Positions 9,844 through 58,142 of a stretch of DNA of 64,000 bases are shown one piece after another. This DNA is from Mycoplasmataceae bacterium (GTDB lineage Bacteria > Bacillota_I > Bacilli_A > Mycoplasmatales > Mycoplasmoidaceae). A program made the translations under genes and the position numbers. The stretch is taken from positions 1 through 64,000 of the forward strand of contig JAQXJX010000002.1 in NCBI GenBank assembly GCA_029009155.1, read 5' to 3'. The notes under the pieces are model-generated. The model was not told where the DNA came from. It did no database searches and saw only the letters and a program-made list of their open reading frames with translations. Each line of letters opens with the position of its first letter. The first letter of the stretch is position 1.

Positions 9844-9920
9844 GGGAGCATAGCTCAGCTGGTTAGAGCACACCCCTGATAAGGGTGAGGTCGATGGTTC
9901 GAGTCCATTTACTCCCACCA
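9844..9920 (+). tRNA. tRNA-Ile (anticodon GAT)
   Basis: A full cloverleaf of 77 bases with encoded CCA. The anticodon loop CTGATAA gives GAT. The D loop has the usual G18-G19 and the T loop is TTCGAGT with C56. The acceptor stem has a C6-A67 mismatch; otherwise it pairs well. It is 5 bases before tRNA-Ala, the familiar Ile-Ala pair, here without an rRNA operon. Confidence 0.95.
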
Positions 9921-9925
9921 TGTAT

Positions 9926-10002
9926 GGGGGATTAGCTCAACCCGATAGAGCACCTGATTTGCACTCAGGGGGTTGTGGGTTTGAATCCCATATCCTCCAC
10001 CA
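9926..10002 (+). tRNA. tRNA-Ala (anticodon TGC)
   Basis: A 77-base cloverleaf with encoded CCA and anticodon loop TTTGCAC (TGC). The acceptor stem contains the G3-U70 wobble that marks alanine tRNAs. The D loop (AACCCGATA) has A where G19 should be, and the T loop (TTTGAAT) has T where C56 should be, so the elbow pair is A19-U56 instead of G19-C56. The 15-48 pair is A-U. Confidence 0.93.
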
Positions 10003-16959: not shown

Positions 16960-17035
16960 TGGTGGAGTGTGAGGGGCTCGAACCCCCGACCCTATCCTTG
17001 TAAGGGATATGCTCTCCCAACTGAGCTAACACTCC
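16960..17035 (-). tRNA. tRNA-Val (anticodon TAC)
   Basis: A 76-base cloverleaf with encoded CCA, a fully paired acceptor stem (GGAGTGT / ACACTCC) and anticodon loop CTTACAA. D loop GG and T loop TTCGAGC (C56) are standard. Last of three reverse-strand tRNAs. Confidence 0.95.
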
Positions 17036-17041
17036 TTAATA

Positions 17042-17118
17042 TGGTGACCTGTACGGGATTCAAACCCATGAATGTACGCGTGAAAGGCGTATGTGTTAAG
17101 TCACTTCACCAACAGGCC
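17042..17118 (-). tRNA. tRNA-Glu (anticodon TTC)
   Basis: A 77-base cloverleaf with encoded CCA and anticodon loop CTTTCAC. The D loop (AAGTGACTTAA) has G18-A19, and the T loop is TTTGAAT, so U56 replaces C56; the elbow pair is A19-U56. The acceptor has a G2-U71 wobble. It lies between tRNA-Asn and tRNA-Val. Confidence 0.94.
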
Positions 17119-17123
17119 TTGTA

Positions 17124-17198
17124 TGGCGGCCACAGTAAGGATCGAACTTACGACCAACCGGTTAACAGCCGGTTGCTCTACCGCTGAGCTATGTGGCC
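17124..17198 (-). tRNA. tRNA-Asn (anticodon GTT)
   Basis: A 75-base cloverleaf with encoded CCA, acceptor GGCCACA / TGTGGCC, discriminator G and anticodon loop CTGTTAA. D loop GG and T loop C56 are standard. First of the reverse-strand cluster; AT-rich sequence upstream on the minus strand includes TATAGT and TATTAT, either of which could be the -10. Confidence 0.95.
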
Positions 17199-58064: not shown

Positions 58065-58142
58065 AGCCCGTTGGTGAAACGATTTAACACACACGCCTCT
58101 CAAGCGTGGATTTGCAGGGTTTGATTCCCGCACGGGTTACCA
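58065..58142 (+). tRNA. tRNA-Glu (anticodon CTC)
   Basis: A 78-base cloverleaf with encoded CCA, related to tRNA-Glu(TTC) at 17042 (the same D-arm style GTGAA...TTAACAC). The anticodon loop CTCTCAA gives CTC. The acceptor starts A1-U72, G2-U71. The T stem is imperfect (CAGGG / CCCGC) and one base longer in the variable/T-stem area, as if an A bulges. The elbow is A19-U56, as in the other tRNA-Glu. It is a lone gene just before a terminator. Confidence 0.8.

Follow-up and report, generated by a model that had tools for sequence, protein, structure and literature searches.

The G19:C56 pair, a tertiary contact between the D loop and the T loop of tRNA, is commonly regarded as near-invariant. 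Residue R57 stacks on the 19:56 pair, and the elbow stacks against RNase P, the ribosomal L1 stalk and the A-site finger. The exposed pair caps the elbow stack, and it presents a flat stacking face for RNase P, the ribosome and T-boxes (PMC4810234). A G19C mutant of human mitochondrial tRNA-Ser(UGA) loses charging and regains it when the pair is rebuilt as A19:U56 or as C19:G56 (PMC10412605). In C. elegans tRNA-Ala, a change of G18G19 to AA combined with a compensating change at 56 fails to restore charging by AlaRS, with the caveat that G18 is changed as well in that mutant (PMC10485164).

Here we describe A19:U56 tRNAs in the bacterial family Mycoplasmoidaceae. The trait is real, coordinated, old and inherited, and it adds a new natural set to compensated changes of a kind already known. 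The A19:U56 pair resembles the canonical one in that it occupies the same positions, has a purine at 19 and a pyrimidine at 56, is Watson-Crick, and adjoins a normal G18:U55. It differs in having one hydrogen bond fewer and other groups in the groove, and its R57 is nearly always a G (150/153 A19:U56 tRNAs versus 87/202 G19:C56 tRNAs, in fetched loci that include duplicates and relatives). The mitochondrial rescue variant has the same pair, but it is engineered (PMC10412605), whereas the pair of this family is natural, bacterial and fixed.

The window, the whole 64,000-nt stretch of DNA that we analysed, has six tRNA genes. We located them with ARAGORN, and a script assigned the Sprinzl numbering (Table 1).

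Table 1. The tRNA genes of the window and the state of their 19:56 elbow pair (ARAGORN, Sprinzl numbering).
tRNA	Positions	Strand	Elbow state
tRNA-Ala(TGC)	9926..10002	+	A19 at 9945, T56 at 9982 (A19:U56 elbow pair)
tRNA-Glu(TTC)	17042..17118	-	A19 at 17101, T56 at 17062
tRNA-Glu(CTC)	58065..58142	+	A19 at 58082, T56 at 58122
tRNA-Ile(GAT)	9844..9920	+	canonical G19:C56; directly upstream of tRNA-Ala
tRNA-Val(TAC)	16960..17035	-	canonical G19:C56
tRNA-Asn(GTT)	17124..17198	-	canonical G19:C56 in the window

The preliminary description had assigned A19 and T56 to the alanine and both glutamate tRNAs, and G19 and C56 to the other three, and the ARAGORN genes under Sprinzl numbering confirm it: the former read G18-A19 and T54-T55-T56, and tRNA-Ile, tRNA-Val and tRNA-Asn read G18-G19 and T54-T55-C56. 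An alignment that places another G at 19 fails. The D loops of Ala (AACCCGATA) and Glu(CTC) (AACGATTTA) each contain a single G, required as G18 opposite U55, so that placing it at 19 would cost the G18:U55 contact; in the Glu(TTC) D loop (AGTGACTTA) the second G is G15, opposite C48. The Ala D-loop GA also falls in the GG columns of the Rfam tRNA covariance model. In other respects tRNA-Ala(TGC) has A15:U48, G57, full acceptor and T stems and an encoded CCA.

The source assembly is 92.5% complete, with 885,581 bases on 33 contigs, and 33 tRNAs score above threshold in it; all of them were read. Twenty-nine are G19:C56, four are A19:T56 (Ala(TGC), Glu(TTC), Glu(CTC) and Arg(TCG)) and none is mixed, which upholds for the organism's own tRNAs the claim that the switch is coordinated. 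If placed independently among the 33 tRNAs, four A19 and four T56 would coincide exactly with P = 1/40,920. The three out of six seen in the window are a local enrichment of a trait present in 4/33 tRNAs. In the genome scan, Rfam RF00005 gives 63.9 bits to Ala, 53.9 to Glu(TTC) and 62.7 to Arg(TCG); with their cloverleaf stems, T-loop motif and scores above gathering, these have the features of functional elongator tRNAs. Ala(TGC) and Glu(TTC) are the sole genes in the assembly with their anticodons. Glu(CTC) has the lowest tRNA score in the genome (42.7 bits) and is absent from the listing of the window scan. It is 78 nt long, has A1:U72, and needs a bulged A at 58116 for its T stem to pair in full. 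The same tRNA is well formed in congeners, and the copy in the window may be a decaying gene or an assembly error. The genome also has a tRNA-Trp(TCA), which indicates that UGA is decoded as Trp, as in Mycoplasmatales.

Across the 95 genomes of the family set, 67 tRNA-Ala genes match a pattern running from D loop to T loop: 56 are A19:T56 (the tRNA-Ala of the window and those of 55 other genomes), 11 are G19:C56 and none is mixed. The 11 canonical carriers comprise every genome of genera g3 and g4 (ten in total), which we take to be the hemoplasmas, and one congener, G037. For tRNA-Glu(TTC), all 39 matched family genomes have A19:T56 and all 15 matched genomes from five other families of the order have G19:C56, with no mixed state in the 54. 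A19:C56 occurs in neither the family tRNA-Ala set nor the order tRNA-Glu set, both of which were open to detecting it. With a pattern that leaves out the D loop, T56 appears among the matches listed in Asp(GTC) of g2, g3, g4, g7, g9, g11 and part of g8, in Pro(TGG) of g3, in Asn(GTT) of g4, and in Arg(TCG) and Glu(CTC) of g1; the tRNA-Asn of g4 is A19:T56 wherever its D loop was read. The family genomes presumably include M. genitalium G37 (G079), M. penetrans (G027), M. parvum (G010), M. suis (G011), M. wenyonii (G012) and M. haemofelis (G016), and Ureaplasma diversum, M. alvi and M. testudinis appear to be among them. Since the Glu switch is fixed and the Ala switch nearly so, A19:U56 is an old, stably inherited trait of the whole family, M. 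genitalium and Ureaplasma included, and not recent drift. Of the "compensated drift" proposed in the preliminary description, the compensation stands; drift applies only in part, given family-wide fixation in Glu, near fixation in Ala and two inferred reversals.

Those reversals come from an RpoB tree of 30 genomes, a quick tree whose inter-genus backbone is poorly resolved. With full SH-aLRT support, the hemoplasmas group with G073, a g9 genome with an A19:T56 tRNA-Ala, and are nested inside the family. On this tree parsimony counts one change for Glu, three for Ala and three for Asp. We read the three Ala changes as one gain, one reversal in the hemoplasmas and one in G037; for the hemoplasmas, it is their position in the tree that makes a G19:C56 tRNA-Ala a reversal.

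Outside the family, a scan of 395 genomes of the class finds a T56 tRNA-Ala only in the family and a single distant genome, where A19 is likewise present. In the GTDB species genomes, at least 117 stretches have the T56 tRNA-Ala pattern, the majority from Saccharibacteria; the matches listed also include Mycoplasmoidaceae, rumen Alphaproteobacteria and Opitutaceae, along with single others. Saccharibacteria, the Alphaproteobacteria and Opitutaceae are lineages unrelated to the family. Among the GTDB matches listed, A19 accompanies T56 in 118/118 T56 tRNA-Ala genes, a count that includes two loci fetched from family genomes; one match is not a tRNA. The 118 genes, with the unmixed 67 Ala and 54 Glu genes, bear out the claim that the D-loop/T-loop contact is kept by another pair: both positions change together, and mixed states are rare. 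In 17 genomes from the GTDB scan, T56 tRNAs are nearly all Ala(TGC) or Ala(CGC), which is no evidence of an Ala preference because these genomes were preselected for a T56 tRNA-Ala. An open phylum-level sample of 392 genomes, covering tRNAs of the GCTC/GAGC type that have T56 and A or G at 19, has 29 T56 genes, of which 27 are A19:T56 and two are G19:T56: an Arg(CCG) in G103 and a Thr in G564. These two are plausible wobble intermediates. We also observe A19:T56 tRNA-Ala on contigs titled Thermoplasmata, Rickettsiales and Paludibacteraceae (L118, L119 and L054). The Rickettsiales- and Paludibacteraceae-titled contigs resemble Mycoplasmoidaceae and Saccharibacteria sequences, so those bins may be contaminated.

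We consider it highly probable that G19:C56 was replaced by A19:U56 in a compensated substitution, fixed at the base of the family, inherited and occasionally reverted, with a flat Watson-Crick purine-pyrimidine pair kept at the elbow. A Watson-Crick pair of purine 19 and pyrimidine 56 would still cap the D-loop/T-loop stack, and A19:U56 would offer its flat face to the stacking partners. Fixation in tRNA-Glu would date to the base of the family, as most likely would that in tRNA-Ala; later switches followed in single genera (Asp, Arg, Pro, Asn), and the route was probably a tolerated G19-U56 wobble. The switched pairs would have been passed down from then on, with tRNA-Ala reverted in the hemoplasmas and one congener. 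The substitution is most likely harmless and shape-preserving, although the persistence of A19:U56 in tRNA-Glu across the family could reflect selection.

Other explanations make different demands on the data. That sequencing or assembly errors, tRNA pseudogenes or misnumbered D loops created the pair has almost no probability left: the poorly formed Glu(CTC), with its low score and bulged T stem, is what such an explanation can point to, but A19:T56 is conserved in single-contig genomes, one of them of 580,076 bp, and the well-scoring Ala and Glu(TTC) genes have no other gene of their anticodon in the assembly. An artefact is refuted for Ala, Glu(TTC) and Arg. It had also been suggested that recognition by modification enzymes or EF-Tu was relaxed. 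EF-Tu binds the T stem and not 19:56. As for the enzymes, loss of TruB or of other T-loop enzymes could have lifted the need for C56, and TruB is lacking in hemoplasmas, M. genitalium and M. pneumoniae (PMC4014445); our search of the family genomes likewise did not find it in the hemoplasmas or G079. We judge this very unlikely. TruB, the Psi55 synthase, is present in the source genome (E 1.4e-52) and in most of the A19:U56 genera (it is found in 56/95 family genomes, mostly A19:U56 carriers), and the hemoplasmas that lack it have a canonical tRNA-Ala. Psi55 synthase loss is therefore rejected as the cause, and the suggestion of relaxed enzyme recognition is not supported.

A closer contender, which we still regard as improbable, is co-adaptation with AlaRS, whose C-Ala domain touches the elbow: a family-specific form of this domain would read A19:U56 in tRNA-Ala, and G19:C56 would have returned once the domain was remodelled. 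C-Ala of C. elegans requires G18G19 (PMC10485164), and the genera with a canonical tRNA-Ala have altered synthetases: the AlaRS of hemoplasma genus g3, about 440-460 aa, is without the editing and C-Ala domains, that of g4 has lost most of the helix preceding C-Ala, and the complete AlaRS genes of the remaining genera are full length. The tree, on which the hemoplasma tRNA-Ala is a reversal, also fits. However, g3 and g4 form one clade and so amount to a single event, G037 combines a G19:C56 tRNA-Ala with a full-length AlaRS, and the tRNAs for Glu, Asp, Arg, Pro and Asn switch likewise without any C-Ala. The 19:56 state of tRNA-Ala thus agrees with the C-Ala state in the hemoplasma clade and disagrees in G037, which leaves the link weak and the hemoplasma coincidence suggestive. 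Equally doubtful in our estimate is a broader version, in which 19:56 and R57 together would mark particular tRNAs for identity or sorting in a lineage-specific way; an elbow-binding partner such as AlaRS C-Ala would read the mark, released in the hemoplasmas as the domain decayed. Regarding the synthetases themselves, the AlaRS ORFs of g3 are 440-447 aa long, without the editing and C-Ala domains (L171-L177), and g4 AlaRS keeps both domains and is missing about 60 aa before C-Ala. Profile end points had indicated a g4 AlaRS without C-Ala, which is ruled out by an alignment showing the C-Ala core and its GGG motif.

For compensated substitution, the bacterial covariation matches the mitochondrial rescue, and both would say that the pair is kept and its letters are free. 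The pattern across genomes suggests that the requirement at 19:56 is one of geometry. The sequences of the named species have long been public, and an incomplete literature search found no paper on the A19:U56 trait in bacteria. With several A19:U56 isoacceptors, reversals and few wobble intermediates, one bacterial family provides a natural mutagenesis experiment, which probes whether RNase P, the ribosome, T-boxes and elbow-reading synthetases need the geometry of the pair or its letters. G19 and C56 should not count as fixed in tRNA models or design rules for Mycoplasmoidaceae-type bacteria and Saccharibacteria.

Other elbow variants occur in the family. Like A19:U56, they change both bases of a D-loop/T-loop contact together, each in single isoacceptors, and they differ from it in kind: one hits 18:55 as A18:G55 (Phe, Met, Ile) and the other is the swapped pair T19:A56 (Trp). 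In the tRNA-Phe(GAA) of the source genome (L007, positions 552-627 of the minus strand, G000:C21), A18 and G55 replace G18:U55; the second elbow contact is likewise switched in coordination, and with G55 no pseudouridine is possible at 55. A18:G55 is also found in the tRNA-Met of G003 (L018) and in hemoplasma tRNA-Ile (L021 and L022). The tRNA-Trp(CCA) of two family relatives (L079 and L105) has T19 and A56, a swapped Watson-Crick pair.
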